From Sulfolobus sp. S-194 (lineage in GTDB: Archaea > Thermoproteota > Thermoprotei_A > Sulfolobales > Sulfolobaceae): a DNA stretch of 64,000 bases. Location of the stretch: NCBI RefSeq assembly GCF_012222305.1, contig NZ_CP035730.1, positions 2,011,501 to 2,075,500 of the forward strand, in the 5' to 3' direction. Made by a program: the position numbers and the translations under genes. The notes beneath the pieces were generated by a model. The model worked only from the letters and a program-made list of their open reading frames with translations. It had not been told where the DNA came from and searched no databases. Shown in pieces: positions 240 through 14,296 of this stretch; the first letter of the stretch is position 1, and each line of letters starts with the position of its first letter.

Positions 240-515
240 AGCTAACTTTTTTTATTCGCGAGTGTGGCGTTCAGTAATAAACCTTTCGGTCAAACTTCAA
301 GCATAGTATTAGCTAACATTGCCACGTGGGTCCTTTCAACCCACGTGGCGATTCGGGGGGAGGGCTCACCTATTTAGGCTCATAAGGCTTATTATTATAC
401 CAAACACTCCAAACAACCCTTGCCAACCTCCTTGCTAAGGCTGTGTATAACTTTTTACCCTTAAGCCTATACTTATGAGACTCATAAAACTTCAACAAGG
501 TTGGGTTCCTAGAGT
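240..515 (-). mobile_element. IS110-family 3' end remnant
   Basis: On the minus strand this stretch matches the 3' part of the complete IS110 element at 16694-17918. It has the last ~48 codons of the transposase (from YSRNPTLLKF to the stop at 370), then the non-coding right end with the CCACGTGGG hairpin (about 326-350) and the terminal GAACGCCACACTC (about 256-268). Everything upstream in the transposase is missing, so it cannot be active. Bases 1-239 outside it hold nothing I can recognise. Confidence 0.85.
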
Positions 516-750
516 AAATTACTTTGGTTATTGCAGAATCTATAATGTGGCCGACTAACGCACTTACTATTGCTCCCGCTATAGTCTCGACATCTGATTT
601 GCTTAATGAATTACCAGCTACAGTACCTATTATCTTCTCTACGATTATCTCCTCAACCTCTTCTTCACCTAACTTGTCACAAACTGATTTAGCAATTTTA
701 ATGCTCTCATTGTCATCATTAGCCGTATACCTAATGTGTATTTCCCCCAA
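370..750 (-). CDS. Chimeric ORF: unknown small protein fused to IS110 tail
   Basis: The 126-residue frame is a chimera. Residues 1 to about 78 are an unrecognised acidic segment (an EEEVEEIIVEKIIG helix followed by a Gly/Ala/Ile-rich stretch). Residues from about 79 are the C-terminal tail of an IS110 transposase. The join lies at the inner edge of the IS110 remnant, so the fusion is a by-product of transposon decay. The only start in frame is a TTG. A second frame just upstream (about 750-815, reading MNEYIARYIGSKDH) looks coding-like and may be the true 5' part of the original gene, lost by frameshift. Most likely a pseudogene; no function can be assigned. Confidence 0.35.
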   Translation of the reverse strand: MGEIHIRYTANDDNESIKIAKSVCDKLGEEEVEEIIVEKIIGTVAGNSLSKSDVETIAGAIVSALVGHIIDSAITKVIYSRNPTLLKFYESHKYRLKGKKLYTALARRLARVVWSVWYNNKPYEPK

Positions 751-2183: not shown

Positions 2184-2798
2184 TCATGTTTTTATGGTAG
2201 TAAGATCTTCTAAGATAATGGCTATTACTCTGAATAACTGATCATAAGTCTTTTCAATGCACGATTCTTTTGCCTCCTTTTGTATATGATTAAGTATTTC
2301 CTTGTATTTTCTACAACATCCTTCCCCTCTAAACTTACTTACATCTTTATTGCAAATTTTTATCAGAATAAAATCTTCAATACAACAATAAAAGCCTAGA
2401 AATACAAAATATATGAAAAATTTCTTATCTCCTACATTGCACATTAACCTATAAACATCAAAGTCTTCTCTGATCTTTTGTATAGAGGAAATTAGAATTC
2501 CGTACTTACTTGCATATCTACTAATACAGCTCTCGTAGTCTGAAGTGCAGTGCTCTTTGTCAATAAATATGATATAACTTAAAGAAAATCTTGTAACGTC
2601 ATCTTTAATGAATTTTAACACTCCATCAATTCCAGTATTTATAGTTCTCCCTTTACCTTTTCTACCGCTTTCTGGGATAAATAATGAGGTTTCGCAATAT
2701 TTATCCTTATTTCTTTCCAATGTGTTCATAATAATAGATCTCTCAAACTGCCCATCTCCAAAAACTACCTGAATATTAGCTTTCTCAGAGAACTTCAC
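2184..2798 (-). CDS. Small TOPRIM-like protein paired with AAA ATPase
   Basis: This 204-residue protein has the layout of a minimal TOPRIM fold. A hydrophobic strand enters a Gly-rich acidic turn, VVFGDGQFER (residues 11-20, E19 in the place of the TOPRIM glutamate). Later another strand ends in the acidic motif FIDKEH (D80, E82), matching the TOPRIM DxD position. A cysteine-rich C-terminal half (GEGCCRKYKE) is unusual. Its start overlaps the stop of the upstream ATPase gene by 14 bases, so the two are translationally coupled. ATPase plus TOPRIM is the architecture of OLD nucleases and of the PARIS pair AriA/AriB (DUF4435). The relation to those is inference from motifs and order, not a demonstrated match. 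Confidence 0.55.
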   Translation of the reverse strand: MKFSEKANIQVVFGDGQFERSIIMNTLERNKDKYCETSLFIPESGRKGKGRTINTGIDGVLKFIKDDVTRFSLSYIIFIDKEHCTSDYESCISRYASKYGILISSIQKIREDFDVYRLMCNVGDKKFFIYFVFLGFYCCIEDFILIKICNKDVSKFRGEGCCRKYKEILNHIQKEAKESCIEKTYDQLFRVIAIILEDLTTIKT

Positions 2799-4170
2799 TA
2801 GATAATTTAAGTGCTGTATATCTTAAATCTTCGTAATCCATTCTGTTTAAAACCTCTTCCGAAGTTAAAACCTCATACTTACCGTCGTTAATTAGTATAA
2901 ACCTAACGTTATCTGACCTCTTTTCAGCCAAATACGCGTAAACGTCACTACTTTGTGTTGTAATTAATATTAAATCCACGTCCAGTCTTAACAAGAAGTC
3001 GTAAAATTGCTTAAGCAGTTCCGGATGTAATGCAAAGCTTTCTAAGTCGTCAATAAGGATAATCTTAGGTTGGTAAATAACATATGACAGTATGAAATTT
3101 AGCAAGCTCTTGTATCCGTAACCTAACTCGTTAATTGAAACGTCTGTCTTATCATTAAATAAAACTCTGATTTCATTTCTCGCCGATAAATAAACGTAGA
3201 AGATATTAGGATCGAACTTATTCATTAGGTCGGTAACTTTACGTAATATTGATTGGTCAAAATTTACTGTGGAGTTCTCACGAGGATATATTAAAAGCAC
3301 TTTAGCGTCTTTGTTTCTTCTTGACGAGACATCTGAAAACTCGACTGTGTAATACTCACCGTTTAAATACAATTCTGTTTCCGCGATTTGATTAGACACA
3401 CTACCCCTGAACTCCTTTATTTTGTTTGCATTATTAGGATCAAGCATGGCTATTGCTTCTAACACGCTCGTCTTCCCTACATTATTCTTGCCTAAAATTA
3501 CACCGATTTTGAAATTAGGTAAGACCATCTTAAAGTCTTTCAGCTTCCTATGATTCCTTATCCTAATACCTATGCCTAACTTACTAAGCTTTTCTGGTAA
3601 GGATAAAACGTATTTAGCATTAACGTAGGGGGAATCGTAAACTCTTACAAATTCCCCTCTCCCGTATTTATATATCCAAGTTGAGTAGAGTATTCCTCCA
3701 CCTTGTTTTACTATGCTAATCGGTACAAGTGACTGATTAGCTCCCACCGGTCTCCAGGATTCCTTTGGGTCGTATTCTAGCATTTCACCTACAATACTGT
3801 TTTCGCTTTTCTCAGACACTGGCCTGTGTTCAAGGTTTTCAGGTATAAAGGGGAAGGGATTTCCTTTGCTGAATATCTCTTCTTTTACGCCGTTCTTATC
3901 TACGTAATAGAAAGGAATATCTCCTACCCAAATTACCGTACCTCCTCTTTCCATGAATTTGAAAATTTCTGTTTCACTTACTGGTCTGTTAGGATAATCG
4001 TACAAGCTGTAAGGTATAACATCAGTTCCGAAAATTAGGAAAGATCCTTCCCCATGCGAGCTAACCCAATTGACTACTGAGTTATAATCAAGAATAGGAT
4101 ATTTCGAATTGTACTTACAGATTTCTTCCGTCCAACTATATACTTTACCGCAGTATACTGCTATCTCCAT
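2785..4170 (-). CDS. AAA/ABC-type ATPase with N-terminal amidotransferase-like domain
   Basis: This is a 461-residue protein. Residues from about 205 form an OLD/RecF-like ATPase of the AAA_15/AAA_21 type: Walker A GKNNVGKTS (227-235), a signature-like NELGYGYKSLLN, Walker B IILIDDLESFALHPELL and a switch-like LILITTQSSDV. Residues 1 to about 190 look like a separate alpha/beta domain: SFLIFGTDVIPYS, then GGTVIWVGDIPFYY (76-89), typical of class-I-amidotransferase/ThuA-like folds but without a visible catalytic Cys-His-Glu set. It heads a two-gene unit with the TOPRIM-like protein. The partner and fold suggest nucleic-acid sensing coupled to cleavage, probably against phage or plasmids (inference). 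The N-terminal fusion is the odd part. Confidence 0.65.
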   Translation of the reverse strand: MEIAVYCGKVYSWTEEICKYNSKYPILDYNSVVNWVSSHGEGSFLIFGTDVIPYSLYDYPNRPVSETEIFKFMERGGTVIWVGDIPFYYVDKNGVKEEIFSKGNPFPFIPENLEHRPVSEKSENSIVGEMLEYDPKESWRPVGANQSLVPISIVKQGGGILYSTWIYKYGRGEFVRVYDSPYVNAKYVLSLPEKLSKLGIGIRIRNHRKLKDFKMVLPNFKIGVILGKNNVGKTSVLEAIAMLDPNNANKIKEFRGSVSNQIAETELYLNGEYYTVEFSDVSSRRNKDAKVLLIYPRENSTVNFDQSILRKVTDLMNKFDPNIFYVYLSARNEIRVLFNDKTDVSINELGYGYKSLLNFILSYVIYQPKIILIDDLESFALHPELLKQFYDFLLRLDVDLILITTQSSDVYAYLAEKRSDNVRFILINDGKYEVLTSEEVLNRMDYEDLRYTALKLSSEVL

Positions 4171-4361: not shown

Positions 4362-5594
4362 TTATAAAGGATATATCTTATCGATCAGCCTACTGCAGGG
4401 TGAAGATATCATAGCGATAATAACGTCAATGTTACATCTTACTAGCCTTCCGTTTTGGAATTCGCACCATTGTAAAGTGTTATTAGGATCAAAAAATACT
4501 AATCTAGTTAGCTTAGCTGGACAGTCTATGATTATTGAATAATCGTGGTTTGGATACTTTACTCCTCCACGATCCAAATGTACGCTAAATTCTGGTATTA
4601 TATACCGCATTTTCAGACTAGGCGTAAATCTAGAAATCTTAGCGCCCATTTGTACTAATTGACTTATATGGTATCTTCCATTTAACGGATTTTTAGGCAA
4701 AGATACCTTCGGTAATTTGTTAATTAAATTCATAACAATGTCGTCATTCAAATAAGGATTACCCATTGGGATGCTTTCACTCAAAATTTTACTATTTTTA
4801 TTATCGTTTATATCAACTTTTATGGAATTGCCTATACCGTATACCTCCCCATAATAATAAGGGAGTAAGCTATCCTTGTATTTCTCAACTTGAGAAATAG
4901 CTGTCTTATCATAGTATGATTTAAATTCAAGAACTAAAAAGGAATATTCGCAATCTAGTAACTGTTCGTTATCACAGCTCGTAATGTATATTGCGAGATC
5001 TGGTTTAACTATACCTAACCCCTCAAGATTTATTGAACTACACTCTGAAATTGCACAAAAACCGTTTTTATTTAAAATTCTCACGAATTCTGCTCTTAAA
5101 AATCTCTCATAAGTTGGTGAGGCAAATATCTTATTTATAACAGCACTTCTAGGAATGGTAAAATTAAGAGTTACTGAGAGGGATTGAGGAAGAAAAACTG
5201 AGAAGAAGTAATTAAATAGTTCACCATAAGATTGAAAGGAGCTACTAAATACTTCATTATTACCGTGGTATATTTCAAGACGAATAAAATTAGTCAAATC
5301 AACGCATACAGTATAATAAGGATTTACAATACTAGCATATTCAAATGCTTGCTTACATATTTTAGTATGAGAACTTGATTTTAGCTCATTTTTGAATTCA
5401 AATAGGAAGAGAGGACTACAGTACCCATTGTTACATATATAAGTAACTAAGTCAGCCCTTTGATTTTTATTCCCTACTAGCATTTCGGGGATATTTATAC
5501 TATCTATACCTCTTCTCTTAAGGTATTCCACTATTTCTGCATACCACTGATCTCTTATCTCTCCCTCACTTATAAAATGTAAATATCTAACCAT
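4362..5594 (-). CDS. Tandem PD-(D/E)XK nuclease-like protein
   Basis: This 410-residue protein carries two complete PD-(D/E)XK motif sets. The first has D48 in RADLVTY, E66-x-K68 in LFLFEFKNEL and the helix Q82xxxY86. The second has D199 in VKPDLAIY, E223-x-K225 in LVLEFKSYYD and Q235xxKY239. The Q-x3-Y helix is typical of RecB-like and HsdR-N-type nucleases. The C-terminal ~150 residues are unassigned. The gene is transcribed away from a protein kinase gene with only 35 bases between start codons, implying joint regulation. Two intact active sites in one chain could mean double-strand cleavage by one polypeptide. I infer a defence or restriction-like role; I recognise no named family. Confidence 0.65.
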   Translation of the reverse strand: MVRYLHFISEGEIRDQWYAEIVEYLKRRGIDSINIPEMLVGNKNQRADLVTYICNNGYCSPLFLFEFKNELKSSSHTKICKQAFEYASIVNPYYTVCVDLTNFIRLEIYHGNNEVFSSSFQSYGELFNYFFSVFLPQSLSVTLNFTIPRSAVINKIFASPTYERFLRAEFVRILNKNGFCAISECSSINLEGLGIVKPDLAIYITSCDNEQLLDCEYSFLVLEFKSYYDKTAISQVEKYKDSLLPYYYGEVYGIGNSIKVDINDNKNSKILSESIPMGNPYLNDDIVMNLINKLPKVSLPKNPLNGRYHISQLVQMGAKISRFTPSLKMRYIIPEFSVHLDRGGVKYPNHDYSIIIDCPAKLTRLVFFDPNNTLQWCEFQNGRLVRCNIDVIIAMISSPCSRLIDKIYPL

Positions 5595-5629
5595 GTAAGT
5601 TTTTTAAGAGTTTTATTTAATAAATTTTT
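5595..5629. promoter_or_regulatory. 35-bp divergent promoter, nuclease / kinase
   Basis: Only 35 bases separate the start codons of the tandem nuclease (minus, ATG at 5594) and the kinase (plus, ATG at 5630). The gap is AT-rich, with GTTTTTTAAGAG toward its left side and TTTATTTAATAAATTTTT toward its right. Either can act as an archaeal TATA box in one direction, so both transcripts would be leaderless and the two promoters would overlap. Confidence 0.5.
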
Positions 5630-7096
5630 ATGGCTATTTATGTTTATATTGTCGGTAAAGTGCAACTTTCAAATCCTCCACTTTTAACTCCCTATGTCCA
5701 GATAACAACAGATCATTTTGATGTTAATAATAAGTATTTACAGTGCGAATTAATGCTAATTGATGAAAAATTAAATGTAGAAACAACTTTCACTACTTGT
5801 TTGACAATTAGGGAAACAGATTCGGTAAAGGTTCTCATAAAGGAGCTTGATCCTAAAATTACTTCAAAACTTTTATCTCAAGCCACATTTATTGCAATAA
5901 TAAGGAGCATAAGCATATTTATAACAAATGAATTGAATTTATCAGATATAAAGCAGTCATTGATGTATTTCAATAATAATACTTTAATATATCATTACGG
6001 GATTGATTACTATATATTGAAATATTCTAATTCTATAGGTCCAATAGATTTACAAACTGCTATTAAATTATTGAATTATGTTATGACAAAAAATTCTTAT
6101 GAACTTTCTAAGAATGCTGAATTTTTAAATATAATTCAGACGTTATTTATCAGCCAAACCAGCCCTTCAACCATTCAAGGTAATGTTTGGGTAGGTAGAA
6201 CAATATATGGTTATAAATTACTTGAGAAGATAGGTGAGGGTGGGAATTCTACGGTGTATAAGGTTGAATATAAGAACTCGCTTTACGCAATGAAAATTTA
6301 TAAGATTTTACCACCTTCTCCTACTCAAAGTATTACTGTGCAAGCGATCAGAATATATAAAGATATATATGACGAGTCATCAAATCTAATAGCACTTTCT
6401 GATAAGTCTAAAAATCTGGTAAAGATCTTTGCAATTTACGTAGACTTGAATAGAATAAAAATGAGGTATGCTGGCGATTTAACGGTATATCTTGACTACC
6501 CACCAGTAATAGTCATGGAATACATGGAAGGAGGTGATATATGGCAAATAGTTAAGGATCAATTGATTTACTCAACTCATTGGGAAAAGGTTGTCGCTAA
6601 AATAGGCCTTGAGATAGCAAACGCCTTAGAGGTAATTCATAATAGCGGATACGTCCACCTAGACGTAAAGCCTAGCAATTTCTTGCTCTCTAAGAAGGTT
6701 AATGTAAATACTGCAGAAGAACTTTTGAATTTACTTAACTCTGGTCAACTAGTCGTAAAGTTAGGGGATTTAGGTTCCGCTAGAAAGATTGGAGAGAGCA
6801 TATTACAATTAACACCAGCATACGCACCACCAGAGCAATTTGATGTAACAAGTAAAGCAGATCCTAGCATGGACGTGTTCTCCCTTGGTGCATCATTATA
6901 TGCGATATATAAGGGCATAAAGGGCTTTAATCCGACTAATTTACAAACTAAGAAGTATGAAAGATATTATCAAGAAGTCTTAAATAAGGTTGCTTCACCA
7001 TTTGAGAAGTACTTGTTAAAAATGACTTCTCCAAATCCGAAAGATAGACCTACAATAGATAATGTTAGAAATGAATTAACAAACTTTTTGATTTAA
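5630..7096 (+). CDS. Eukaryotic-like Ser/Thr protein kinase
   Basis: The 488-residue chain has an unassigned N-terminal ~185 residues and a C-terminal protein kinase domain. Kinase landmarks are the glycine-rich loop IGEGGNSTVYK (201-211), the ATP-binding lysine in YAMKIY (K222), the catalytic loop HLDVKPSN (D345, K347, N350), the metal-binding D380 in GDLG (DLG instead of DFG), the APE-like YAPPEQF (398-404) and D415 in DVFSLG. All catalytic residues are present, so it should be active. No membrane segment is seen. Pairing with a nuclease gene across a 35-bp divergent promoter suggests that phosphorylation controls the nuclease or responds to the same signal (inference). The N-terminal domain may be the sensor. 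Confidence 0.85.
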   Translation: MAIYVYIVGKVQLSNPPLLTPYVQITTDHFDVNNKYLQCELMLIDEKLNVETTFTTCLTIRETDSVKVLIKELDPKITSKLLSQATFIAIIRSISIFITNELNLSDIKQSLMYFNNNTLIYHYGIDYYILKYSNSIGPIDLQTAIKLLNYVMTKNSYELSKNAEFLNIIQTLFISQTSPSTIQGNVWVGRTIYGYKLLEKIGEGGNSTVYKVEYKNSLYAMKIYKILPPSPTQSITVQAIRIYKDIYDESSNLIALSDKSKNLVKIFAIYVDLNRIKMRYAGDLTVYLDYPPVIVMEYMEGGDIWQIVKDQLIYSTHWEKVVAKIGLEIANALEVIHNSGYVHLDVKPSNFLLSKKVNVNTAEELLNLLNSGQLVVKLGDLGSARKIGESILQLTPAYAPPEQFDVTSKADPSMDVFSLGASLYAIYKGIKGFNPTNLQTKKYERYYQEVLNKVASPFEKYLLKMTSPNPKDRPTIDNVRNELTNFLI

Positions 7097-8628: not shown

Positions 8629-9183
8629 ATGAAACCCATTTTCAGTAAGTTCATATAAACAATCGGCCACAAAAACTTACTCGCCTTATCTCTTTTCTAC
8701 CTACTCAATGTAATACTAACAGCTTTCCTTTTCATCTTCCTATACGCATTACCACAAAAGGAGCTAACAATAAAAACAGATGACGGTGAGCTAGTAGGAA
8801 CTTTCATAACACTAGGAGTATTGTCATTTACCTTTGGTTTAAGACACGCAGTAGACGCTGACCACTTAGCTGCAATAGACAATGTAACTAGGAAAATGCT
8901 ACAAGAGGATAAAAATCCAATCTTCGTTGGAACTTTCTTCTCCTTAGGTCACTCAACAGTAGTTATTTTGTTGTCTCTTTCATTGATGATTGCCGCAAGA
9001 TTTGTAGTATCATCATTGCCCTCACTTGAAAACCTTGGAAGTTTTGTTAGTACATTAGTAAGTGGAGGGCTCCTTTACCTATTAGGCTTCCTAAATGCAA
9101 TAGTACTTTACGAATTATACTTGTTATATAAGGAGTTAACGGCCTACACCCCAGTCAGATCTGTATTACACAGATCTGACTAA
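8629..9183 (+). pseudogene. NiCoT nickel/cobalt transporter, truncated
   Basis: The reading frame encodes the N-terminal half of a HoxN/NixA (NiCoT) permease. It contains the signature RHAVDADHLAAIDNVTRKM (about 8845-8901) and hydrophobic helices on both sides (NLLALSLFYLLNVILTAFLF and FVGTFFSLGHSTVVILLS). Two lesions are visible. A TAA at codon 10 (8656-8658) cuts off the apparent ATG at 8629. The gene stops at 9183 after about 180 codons, although family members usually have 330 or more. The break coincides with the palindrome at 9153-9179. No alternative start restores the first helix well, so I call it a pseudogene. Confidence 0.8.
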
Positions 9184-10432: not shown

Positions 10433-11530
10433 TCATTTTATTACATGAGAAGCTATAATTTCTACCCCTTCCTCTTCAAGCTTCTTCTTTACTTTCTTAT
10501 CCACAAAGTTTGCTACAAGAAATATCTTTATCTTCTTATCCTTATACTTTGCAGAGAATAACTTTTTCCTTATGATAATTTGATCGTAAGCCCCTTTGTC
10601 TGCTAAATTCTTTATTTCAAATACGTAAACGTAATCATTGGTTTCGTAAAAGTCAACCTCAAACACCTTGCCTTTCTCTATTACTCCCTCTTCATCTTTT
10701 ATCATACCATGTACTACTCTCTTAGGATCAACTCCGTGTAGCTCTAAAGCCTTTTTATAAAGTTTTAGCATTGTCCTTTCCATTCCTTTTCCCGCCCTAT
10801 TAGTGAAACTTCCCACTTCTACTGAAAGTTTCATAACGGCTCTTTGTAATTTGCGTACTGCCTTCTGCAGACCTTCGATTGCCTCTCCTTGCTTTTTGAC
10901 AGCTTCTTGAAGTGATGTTATTGCTTCCGTATGCTTATTCACCGTCTCTTGTAATGACTTTACTGCTTCTTGGAGAGATTGAATTGCCTCTCCTTGCCTT
11001 TTCACAGTCTCTTGTAACGACTTAACAGCTTCTTGAAGAGATTGAATAGCCTCTGTATGCTTATTAACAGTCTCTTGTAACGACTTAACAGCTTCTTGTA
11101 ACGATGTTATAGCCTCTGTATGCTTATTAACTGTGTTCTGCAAAGATATAATAGCCTCTGTATGCTTATTCACCGTCTCTTGTAATGACTTTACTGCTTC
11201 TTGGAGAGATTGAATAGCTTCCCCTTGCCTTTTCACAGTCTCTTGAAGAGATTGAATAGCCTCGGTATGCTTATTCACAGTCTCTTGTAACGATTTAACA
11301 GCTTCTTGTAACGATGTTATAGCCTCTGTATGCTTATTAACTGTGTTCTGCAAAGATATAATAGCCTCGGTATGCTTATTCACAGTCTCTTGTAAGGCTT
11401 TTACGTTAGCAATCGTTTCTTCTAATTTCTTTATAACTATTTCATCCTTAAGCTTGTCATATATTTTATCAGCTAAGGCTGAAAGTAATTGTGGATTGTT
11501 AAGGATCTCATCGGCAATCTTTCCACTCAT
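10433..11530 (-). CDS. Heptad coiled-coil protein with C-terminal PD-(D/E)XK nuclease motif
   Basis: In this 365-residue protein, residues ~40-235 are an almost perfect heptad array built from the units SLQETVN, KHTEAIQ, SLQEAVK and RQGEAIQ, giving more than 25 heptads with Leu/Val/Ile in register. This predicts a long parallel coiled coil. The C-terminal ~130 residues form a compact domain with FEVDFY (D293), YVFEIKN (E305, K307) and a following lysine-rich helix, the D-ExK core of a PD-(D/E)XK nuclease. The layout matches DUF3782-type archaeal proteins. It is the last gene of an operon after the proteins at 13193-14296 and 11660-13189 (129 bases downstream). The coil probably sets oligomer state or target spacing (inference). 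Confidence 0.75.
   Translation of the reverse strand: MSGKIADEILNNPQLLSALADKIYDKLKDEIVIKKLEETIANVKALQETVNKHTEAIISLQNTVNKHTEAITSLQEAVKSLQETVNKHTEAIQSLQETVKRQGEAIQSLQEAVKSLQETVNKHTEAIISLQNTVNKHTEAITSLQEAVKSLQETVNKHTEAIQSLQEAVKSLQETVKRQGEAIQSLQEAVKSLQETVNKHTEAITSLQEAVKKQGEAIEGLQKAVRKLQRAVMKLSVEVGSFTNRAGKGMERTMLKLYKKALELHGVDPKRVVHGMIKDEEGVIEKGKVFEVDFYETNDYVYVFEIKNLADKGAYDQIIIRKKLFSAKYKDKKIKIFLVANFVDKKVKKKLEEEGVEIIASHVIK
10860..11400. repeat. 21-base tandem repeats encoding heptads
   Basis: Within the coiled-coil gene, blocks such as CTTCTTGGAGAGATTGAAT, GCCTCTGTATGCTTATTCAC and GTCTCTTGTAATGACTTTAC recur in varied order with few changes. Each 21-base unit encodes one heptad and multi-unit blocks are nearly identical, which suggests recent unequal recombination or slippage. 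Array length may differ between strains. Confidence 0.8.
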
Positions 11531-11659: not shown

Positions 11660-13189
11660 TTAGTGTAAGATAGAATTTTGCCTATACCATTTTTTACCTT
11701 CACTAATGAAATCTTCAACTCTCATTAACATACTACCTTTTGTATTATCCATTATTGGAATCATTACGTCCACGTTAATACCTTGTTTTTTAGCTTCTTT
11801 TAACCTACCTATTATACCTTTCATATCTAGAAGGACAGCTATGGATCTCATTACAACCCAAATTTTCCCTAAGCTACTATATTTTTTCTGAACATCATAT
11901 ATTTCATCACTAGGTAGAACGCCATAACTGGTCTTAGCATCTATAACCAAACCAAACTCTTTGACATAAATATCCGGTTTTACTCCTCTTATATCCTCTT
12001 CTACTAAGATCTTGTCTTCGTCAATTTTTTCTACTTCAACTAAGTGTTTGATCGCAACAGCCTTAAGGCCCCTATGTAGTTCCGATTCCTCACCCTTATT
12101 ATGGACGTCTTTGCTCTTGTGGTGTTCCAACCACTCCATAGCATTGCTTAATATTTCCTCAAATGATGAATTTACATTAGCTAAAGCGTCATAAGTTCCT
12201 AAACGCATTTGGAGTCCGGATGCTAGGTAAGCTAATGTTGATATTTCCTCTTTTGAAAGGTTTTCAAACACTATTTTCTTAGGTTTTCCTCCAATAATTA
12301 TCTGGAATTCTTTATAAAGGCATTCTGGCATTATAATTGTAGAATACTTATATCCCATTATACCGTTTAGTGAGTCTCTCAAGATTGTCCTAACTTCTTC
12401 CGTTTTGCACAAATCCTCCTTAATCACGTAAATTCCCGCCGTCGTACCTACATTATACAATTTTGTTAAGCTTAACTCGCTAGAAGAGATTACGTAGGGA
12501 TTAAAGTCGTAACCTCTAATTTTTGCAATTTCCACAGCTAAATACGCTAGGGACTCATCAATTCCAGCCTTATTTTCATCATATACAATAATTGTAGTTC
12601 CATTAGCCCTTATCAGTGATTTAGATAATTGTGAAAAATTATTAAGGAAAGTAATCTGCTCTTCTAATTTTTCTGGTTCTCCAGCGTTGTTTTGTATAAA
12701 AACAATCTGTTTATTTTTTGTTAGGCTTTTATCAACTAATTGTAAATAAATTTTATCATCTAAAGAGCTTACTGTTAGCGTGCTAGGACTTATGAAGACC
12801 AGTTTCTGTGGTCGATTTATCTCACTAATTGTAAATAACGACGTGTCTAAATTATTTACACTAACTAAAGGAGGAGTTTTAAATGATAGCTTGATAAGAT
12901 TAGGAGTATAGGTTATTATATATGTTAATGTATCTAATGGTTTAATGCTGATTTTAGGCGGTAAAGGGAATATTAAAGGTTGTAAGTTTACCTTAACTTC
13001 AAAGTGGAATTGTGCGTCCAATTCTGCTTTAATTGACACCCTTATGATAGGCTTAGAGGTTGATATTTTAAGAGATTTTTCTTTTTTACTTTCTACTTTT
13101 TTAGTGGTTTTTAAACCCTCTTCTCTATTTGTTTCCTCTTCAGCATTTTCAATACTCCTTATTAGCTCCTTCTCTTCTTCACTCATCAT
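11660..13189 (-). CDS. Protein with C-terminal PD-(D/E)XK motif, unknown N-terminus
   Basis: This 509-residue protein opens with a highly charged tail (~1-45), followed by a beta-rich region with repeated proline-hydrophobic strands (~46-160) and an alpha/beta segment (~160-330). The C-terminal part has ESELHRGLKAVAIKHL (~368-383), then VKPDIYV (D406), LVIDAKTSYG (D417-x-K419) and a helix with Q434xxY437. This is a PD-D-x-K nuclease core of the restriction-endonuclease-like fold. The gene starts four bases after the stop of the upstream gene (13193), so the two are coupled. MMSEEEK offers two start codons. No named family is recognised; a nuclease acting with the two operon partners is inference. 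Confidence 0.55.
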   Translation of the reverse strand: MMSEEEKELIRSIENAEEETNREEGLKTTKKVESKKEKSLKISTSKPIIRVSIKAELDAQFHFEVKVNLQPLIFPLPPKISIKPLDTLTYIITYTPNLIKLSFKTPPLVSVNNLDTSLFTISEINRPQKLVFISPSTLTVSSLDDKIYLQLVDKSLTKNKQIVFIQNNAGEPEKLEEQITFLNNFSQLSKSLIRANGTTIIVYDENKAGIDESLAYLAVEIAKIRGYDFNPYVISSSELSLTKLYNVGTTAGIYVIKEDLCKTEEVRTILRDSLNGIMGYKYSTIIMPECLYKEFQIIIGGKPKKIVFENLSKEEISTLAYLASGLQMRLGTYDALANVNSSFEEILSNAMEWLEHHKSKDVHNKGEESELHRGLKAVAIKHLVEVEKIDEDKILVEEDIRGVKPDIYVKEFGLVIDAKTSYGVLPSDEIYDVQKKYSSLGKIWVVMRSIAVLLDMKGIIGRLKEAKKQGINVDVMIPIMDNTKGSMLMRVEDFISEGKKWYRQNSILH

Positions 13190-13192
13190 AAC

Positions 13193-14296
13193 TCACCAAT
13201 GACAACCCAATAGGTATTCGTAGATGTATATTTCTAGACGGTTAAGAGTATGCTCATCTCTTATACTAGATAATTTTAACACATAAATTAACGGTAAACC
13301 TACCTTTTCTAAGAAATCTACTATATTTCCAGTGTAAAATGGAGGGTCTTTTGATCTATGCCTGCACCATACGCTATAGTTTTCAATATCACAACTAAAT
13401 ACTACACTAAACGGTGAGCTTTTTACTTTAGAAATTAAATTATCATAATCACTACAAATTGATCTATCTAAATTTATATAATAAAGATGAGGATTCTCCG
13501 TATAACAAAGACTAGGACTAGAATAGGTACATTTAAATAAACTAAATATATTGTAGTTCACGATAGTTAGTGCTGAACCTATGCTATTTCCAGTAAACGT
13601 TTCATAATTCCCACTTACGATGTCATTATATCCCCAGATCTCATAATCTCTGTTATTTAAATAACTGAACGACCATACTGGACTTACTCCAAATAAGTTG
13701 AAAATTTCTTTATCTAATCTAGGGTATGCTATTTTAAAAGCCTTTAAAGTAGATCCTCTTAAACTGGTTATAAAGAAAGTCCTTGGATTATACACGCTTA
13801 GAAAATTCAGAGATACTTCTGCAAATTCCCTTAGGCTTTCTAAAACGCTTTTATAATCCGTTAAGGTAGGAAAGGAGACGTTAGGCTTCGTTATGTTCTT
13901 AGCCCTTAATACAAAGTCTAAATTAGAATAAATTGTCTGTAACTTGTTATATAACTTAATATCCTTAAATTGTATTGGTACTATACCCGTGCTAGAAGCT
14001 CTCAAAAGAGAAACTACTGCGTTAGTATCAAATGTTAAACCGAATATCTCTTTATAGAATTTTGATACACTGAATTCAGTAAAACTTCCGTCTTCCTTAA
14101 CACCTCCTAACAAAATAACTTCGTATTTCTCATCTTTGATTAAGTCCATAACGTTTTTGCCTACAAGGTTTCTAACTTGATCGTAGATCTTTATGAATTT
14201 TACAACGGAGGAGTAAAGTTTAACTACCTCATTATTTAAGTAATCATTCCACGTTGCAGTATCATAATACCTTATGTCTAAAATTTCATCTGTCAT
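13193..14296 (-). CDS. Unknown protein, first gene of nuclease operon
   Basis: I do not recognise this 367-residue protein. It is soluble in character, with no membrane helices, and is rich in Tyr, Phe and Ser. Noticeable segments are LLGGVKEDGSFTEF (~63-76), FFITSLRGSTLKAFKIAYPR (~175-194) and SPFSVVFSCDIENYSVWCRH (~300-319). The alternation of strands with conserved-looking acids (DGS, CDIE) could fit an RNase-H-like or NurA-like fold, but I cannot show the metal-binding set. It leads an operon whose second and third products carry PD-(D/E)XK motifs, so a partner or regulatory role is likely. The ATG has a TATA-like run ~20-30 bases upstream. Confidence 0.5.
   Translation of the reverse strand: MTDEILDIRYYDTATWNDYLNNEVVKLYSSVVKFIKIYDQVRNLVGKNVMDLIKDEKYEVILLGGVKEDGSFTEFSVSKFYKEIFGLTFDTNAVVSLLRASSTGIVPIQFKDIKLYNKLQTIYSNLDFVLRAKNITKPNVSFPTLTDYKSVLESLREFAEVSLNFLSVYNPRTFFITSLRGSTLKAFKIAYPRLDKEIFNLFGVSPVWSFSYLNNRDYEIWGYNDIVSGNYETFTGNSIGSALTIVNYNIFSLFKCTYSSPSLCYTENPHLYYINLDRSICSDYDNLISKVKSSPFSVVFSCDIENYSVWCRHRSKDPPFYTGNIVDFLEKVGLPLIYVLKLSSIRDEHTLNRLEIYIYEYLLGCHW

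Follow-up and report, generated by a model that had tools for sequence, protein, structure and literature searches.

The nuclease and kinase genes

The stretch of DNA considered here (the window, 64,000 nucleotides) comes from a Sulfolobus host, an archaeon fond of heat and acid, and carries two divergent genes. On the minus strand, 4362..5594 encodes a putative tandem PD-(D/E)XK (HSDR_N-like) nuclease of 410 amino acids, identified from its motifs, an alignment of homologues and Pfam profiles. On the plus strand, 5630..7096 encodes a Ser/Thr protein kinase of 488 amino acids, identified from the Pfam Pkinase model (106 bits against a cut-off of 31.7) and its motif residues.

The nuclease can be divided into three parts. 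Half 1 (approximately residues 12-117; 5244..5561, minus strand) contains D48, E66, K68, Q82 and Y86 and is delimited by HSDR_N/HSDR_N_2 and by the alignment of the two halves, and half 2 (approximately residues 165-272; 4779..5102, minus strand) contains D199, E223, K225, Q235 and Y239 and is delimited by HSDR_N matches in relatives. The initial annotation had reported two full D-ExK-QxxxY sets in this one chain, and all ten residues do indeed lie at the positions it gave; moreover, they are invariant in an alignment of the five usable homologues (5/5). Two non-overlapping sets arose in only 1 of 10,000 shuffles of the nuclease's own residues (0.0001), and, of the 244 ORFs at the sampled loci that reach 150 amino acids, only members of the nuclease family have them. 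The third part, which the initial annotation did not mention, is a C-terminal region of about 125 amino acids (residues ~286-410; 4365..4739, minus strand) that has no family match, but is defined by its conservation in relatives, being kept in all of them except the truncated copy of genome G025.

The catalytic residues of the kinase are complete as first described (G202-x-G204, K222, E249 and H343-x-D345-x-K347-xx-N350), and are followed by the further motifs DLG at 380 (D380), APPEQF at 399 and DVFSLG at 415. The catalytic domain (6212..7069, plus strand) has its nearest relatives elsewhere among the TPR-kinases of the Sulfolobales that we group as g8, whose catalytic domains are 51% identical to it. 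The window kinase has no TPR, and its N-terminal domain differs from that of these proteins. This domain (190 amino acids; 5630..6199, plus strand) matches no Pfam family, in agreement with its earlier description as unassigned, and is otherwise represented by the G013 copy and by a 20-codon remnant in G012. Of 197 genomes, only that of the window and G013 encode the domain as such, both times divergent from the nuclease.

The two genes are separated by a shared divergent promoter region, with the 35-base gap noted initially lying at 5595..5629. It contains one A/T box directed towards the kinase (5599-5610) and one directed towards the nuclease (5611-5624), which we read as probable TATA boxes of leaderless genes; both persist in G012 despite the loss of its kinase gene. 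Both genes show dN/dS values below 1 in pairwise comparisons with the window genome (G000), at about 0.18-0.24 for the nuclease (against G012) and 0.38-0.46 for the kinase (against G013), with weaker constraint in the kinase N-terminal domain (0.42-0.51) than in the catalytic domain (0.28-0.44). As these pairwise values are not separable by branch, they are silent on constraint after the loss of a partner.

Family assignment of the nuclease

Profiles built from residues 1-130 and 150-285 of the same five proteins aligned the two halves to each other with their motifs in register (hhalign E 6e-10, probability 97%), whereas the C-terminal region aligned to neither half profile. The window nuclease itself falls below the Pfam cut-offs of both HSDR_N and HSDR_N_2, its match to HSDR_N (residues 41-89, E 9e-4) scoring 19.5 against a cut-off of 25.1. 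Its relatives, however, exceed these thresholds: HSDR_N_2 at half 1 of the G030 protein (29.8 against 25), HSDR_N at half 2 of the G029 protein (26.6 against 25.1), and both in the G025 protein, where each half separately passes, half 1 with HSDR_N_2 and half 2 with HSDR_N (32.1 and 31.4). Since relatives score above curated thresholds, the nuclease is likely to consist of two copies of a type I restriction-type nuclease domain plus an extra C-terminal region. Sequence profiles thus back the predicted tandem PD-(D/E)XK architecture for both halves.

Other approaches gave little additional information. AlphaFold models, produced from single sequences with the alignment of relatives left out, reached pLDDT values of 37 for the nuclease and 34 for the kinase; a PDB sequence search with the nuclease single sequence and profile returned no match, and the nuclease has no assignment in PADLOC or NCBIfam. 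Judged by its sequence, the protein appears to be a known kind of nuclease, HSDR_N, in tandem form, with an interesting and testable, but unproven, link to a kinase.

Distribution of the nuclease and its association with kinases

The nuclease was found in 7 of the 197 genomes sampled from the host's order, all within one family, the Sulfolobaceae. The profile, run against genome contigs, viral contigs and a sample of 398 genomes from the phylum, detected none outside this family, and a single-sequence search of 50,697 phage and 72,556 plasmid records returned no match. Intact copies are present in the window, G012 (88% identical) and G030 (56%). The G029 copy (47% identical) has a TAG near codon 11, although translation might begin at a later start, the G013 copy carries two frameshifts (one 2-base and one 1-base deletion), the G025 copy stops after half 2, and the G014 copy is interrupted by an insertion with an ORF that looks TnpB-like from its sequence. 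The patchy, often decayed and CRISPR-adjacent nature of these copies indirectly supports a defence role for the nuclease.

A kinase, or what is left of one, adjoins the nuclease at four of the seven loci. An orthologous kinase is its neighbour in both the window and G013; in G012 the first 20 kinase codons survive in this position, and unrelated sequence takes over after them. A TPR-type kinase in the same orientation precedes the nuclease in G030, 174 bases upstream of it. Supported branches separate this TPR-type kinase from the window kinase in the kinase-domain tree, so the G030 association is an independent one, and the four kinase-adjacent loci count as two separate pairings, with kinases that are not orthologous. 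In G029, G025 and G014, the sequence within ~25 kb of the nuclease revealed no kinase. Most carrier genomes encode 7-11 kinases related to the query, and on the rough assumption of ~2,800 genes per genome we estimate the probability of chance adjacency at less than 1% per locus. Two associations in about five lineages therefore exceed chance, with the caveats of a low count and of non-independence among related genomes.

The view of the two genes as a unit therefore survives in part: adjacency recurs in two independent forms, and G013 and G012 bear witness to the orthologous pairing, but three loci are kinase-free and the genes are separable. This separability is clearest in the reciprocal decay of G013, where the kinase is intact and the nuclease frameshifted, and G012, where the nuclease is intact and the kinase lost. 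Since either gene may survive the loss of its neighbour, the kinase is best regarded as an optional, exchangeable partner, and the two are unlikely to form a strict toxin/antitoxin or obligate effector pair. We accordingly rejected a toxin-antitoxin-like obligate unit, whose genes should be kept or lost together. We found no description of the nuclease-kinase pair in the open-licence literature, which is weak evidence as only that part was searched.

CRISPR context and neighbouring genes

The proximity of several nuclease copies to type III CRISPR loci is a further feature absent from the initial annotation. With cas10 located by a Pfam palm model, the nearest cas10 lies 2.8 kb from the nuclease in G029, 10.8 kb in G025, 19 kb in G030 and 47 kb in the window, with 75, 240 and 306 kb completing the seven distances; the G000, G012, G013 and G014 copies thus span 47-306 kb. 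Taken together, cas10 is closer to the nuclease than expected from random placement (Fisher combined p about 2e-4, a value that holds when each lineage is represented by a single genome). Three of the seven loci are near cas10 or RAMP genes, and the window copy is at no cas locus. The G029 nuclease is flanked by a Cmr operon (Cmr1, Cas10/Cmr2, Cmr3) and by cas4-cas1-cas2 plus an array; the G030 nuclease is ~3 kb from RAMP genes; and the G025 nuclease sits in a CRISPR array near its degenerate-repeat end, with Cas6, RAMP, Cas3 and Cas2 genes close by. In this last case the truncated gene occupies ~1.1 kb between two repeats (L021 7543-12581). The proximity to cas10 supports residence in defence-rich regions, and the nuclease may possibly work together with type III systems. 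No CARF or cyclic-nucleotide sensor was matched in the nuclease by Pfam at E up to 1, a search that divergent CARFs can escape. Between the G029 nuclease and cas4-cas1-cas2 lie two small ORFs of 180 and 134 amino acids (L019 10848-11964) that have no NCBIfam match and may be further type III-associated genes.

Several neighbouring genes in the window merit separate mention. Downstream of the nuclease, 2184-4170 (minus strand) holds two overlapping genes, for a 461-residue AAA_15/AAA_21 ATPase with best PADLOC matches to NsnB, AriA and AbiLi, and for a 204-residue protein with no family match. The two are possibly a separate ATPase-effector defence pair, and fragments of both genes occur near the G029 CRISPR locus (L033 2823-4779). 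At 370-750 (minus strand), the first ~75 residues of a 126-residue ORF, which are followed by an IS110-type transposase tail, match a conserved glycine-zipper-like protein encoded immediately past the nuclease gene of G030 (L018 9497-9901). We considered these two ORFs as a third component of the system and rejected them, as the window copy is fused to IS110 and others are at unrelated places.

Beyond the kinase, 11660-14296 (minus strand) contains ORFs of 509 and 367 amino acids that lack Pfam matches. The 509-residue protein has a PD-(D/E)XK-like C-terminal stretch (KPDIYV...LVIDAKT), and a relative spread over two frames lies ~2 kb beyond the kinase in G013 (L020). A 365-residue protein of coiled-coil repeats, nuclease-like at its C-terminus (VFEVDF...YVFEIKN), is encoded at 10433-11530 (minus strand), and in G014 a 67% identical relative is found ~15 kb from what remains of the nuclease gene (L028). 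The 120-residue ORF at 8821-9183 (plus strand; FGLRHAVDADHLAAIDNVTRK) appears, from its sequence, to be a truncated nickel/cobalt transporter gene.

Discussion

A comparison of the seven loci enabled us to propose a model for this gene pair, which we put forward at about an even chance of being right: a mobile tandem HSDR_N-type nuclease, exclusive to the Sulfolobaceae, that cuts virus or plasmid DNA and has acquired the kinase as an add-on regulator. In this model, a horizontally moving nuclease of the HSDR_N clan (PD-(D/E)XK with QxxxY), restricted to one family, would have duplicated its nuclease domain and retained both active sites, with DNA of viruses or plasmids as its most likely target. 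The two sites might serve one strand each or form an intramolecular dimer, and the C-terminal region may function in target binding or control. The kinase, with its private N-terminal domain perhaps acting in sensing, would probably tune the nuclease or its expression, so that control could reside in the C-terminal region, the kinase, or both, and the kinase would have been lost or exchanged in related lineages. Control of the nuclease by the kinase is plausible; its exertion through phosphorylation, like the choice of DNA as target, the antiviral function and the placing of the two sites on opposite strands, is what we infer from the comparison.

It is possible, if on the unlikely side, that the nuclease is autonomous or an ancillary of type III CRISPR systems and the kinase an unrelated passenger of the same defence region. 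In three of the five independent lineages the nuclease gene is located within or next to a type III cas locus or a CRISPR array, the G029, G025 and G014 copies are kinase-free within ~25 kb, and the intact G012 nuclease stands beside a mere 20-codon remnant, all in keeping with this reading. However, cas10 is distant from the copies in the window, G012, G013 and G014, and the nuclease chain has yielded no CARF or other cyclic-nucleotide-sensor family. A passenger also sits poorly with a kinase adjacency that arose twice against a chance of <1% per locus, and with a kinase N-terminal domain confined to the nuclease locus. These last observations, together with the shared divergent promoter region, would suit the opposite extreme, the originally suggested kinase-gated pair in which the kinase senses infection and frees or activates a toxic nuclease, neither working alone. 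We consider such an obligate arrangement improbable, given the intact G012 nuclease with its kinase remnant, the intact G013 kinase with its frameshifted nuclease, and the three loci at which the kinase is missing.

A selfish or mobile-element gene for a homing-like nuclease with no host defence function might account for the patchy distribution over varied genomic sites, one of them a CRISPR array, for the IS-rich surroundings and for the frequent decay (the TnpB-like insertion in G014, the G013 frameshifts, the G025 truncation and the TAG at codon 11 in G029). Nevertheless, the nuclease has no match in the phage and plasmid records or viral contigs searched, neither conserved ends nor a recombinase partner were seen at the loci inspected, and a homing nuclease leaves the kinase partner unexplained; we therefore judge this very unlikely.

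A broader reading, which we offer as speculative and rather doubtful, is a new archaeal innate defence system in which a single-chain, double-site nuclease is licensed by exchangeable Ser/Thr kinases and has elsewhere been taken over by type III CRISPR loci. Licensing would then fall to a kinase with a private N-terminal domain in one lineage and to a TPR kinase in another. Few archaeal defence nucleases beyond CRISPR and classical restriction have been characterised, and a double-site nuclease next to a Ser/Thr kinase would permit a direct test of phosphorylation-controlled archaeal immunity. The loci themselves provide a natural experiment, with the nuclease only in G012, the kinase only in G013, both in the window and another kinase in G030.

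Relationship to known systems

The window kinase matches the mad6 (E 1e-41) and PD-T4-6 kinases of PADLOC, but scores only 56.8 bits against the NCBIfam MAD6 cut-off of 460. A control TPR-kinase, from a g8 operon with metabolic-looking neighbours, matches mad6 equally well (E 7e-40), and this likeness is therefore not diagnostic. We accordingly rejected membership of MADS, Mokosh or PD-T4-6 on the strength of the kinase. Mokosh combines a kinase/helicase with a phospholipase-D-type nuclease, and resembles the window pair in joining a Ser/Thr kinase domain to a nuclease. The window pair differs in having no helicase domain and another nuclease fold, and matches MkoA solely across the kinase domain.

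The nuclease shares PD-(D/E)XK and QxxxY with the HSDR_N/HSDR_N_2 domains of type I restriction R subunits (PF04313, PF13588). In contrast to those subunits, it has tandem domains, a C-terminal region of its own and no helicase/translocase: Pfam found only HSDR_N-type matches, and no SF2 helicase/translocase domains, in the 410 residues. No HsdM or HsdS partners were apparent in an unsystematic look at the neighbouring ORFs.

Can1 likewise carries two PD-(D/E)XK-type domains in one chain, together with two CARF domains (PMC6981274). Its first nuclease-like domain lacks active-site residues, leaving one catalytic domain that is licensed by the cA4-binding CARF domains (PMC6981274). The window nuclease resembles Can1 in its two nuclease domains per chain and in having three relatives at type III CRISPR loci, but differs in having two complete sites and no CARF match. 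It follows that its mode of activation either differs from that of Can1 or lies in the C-terminal region.
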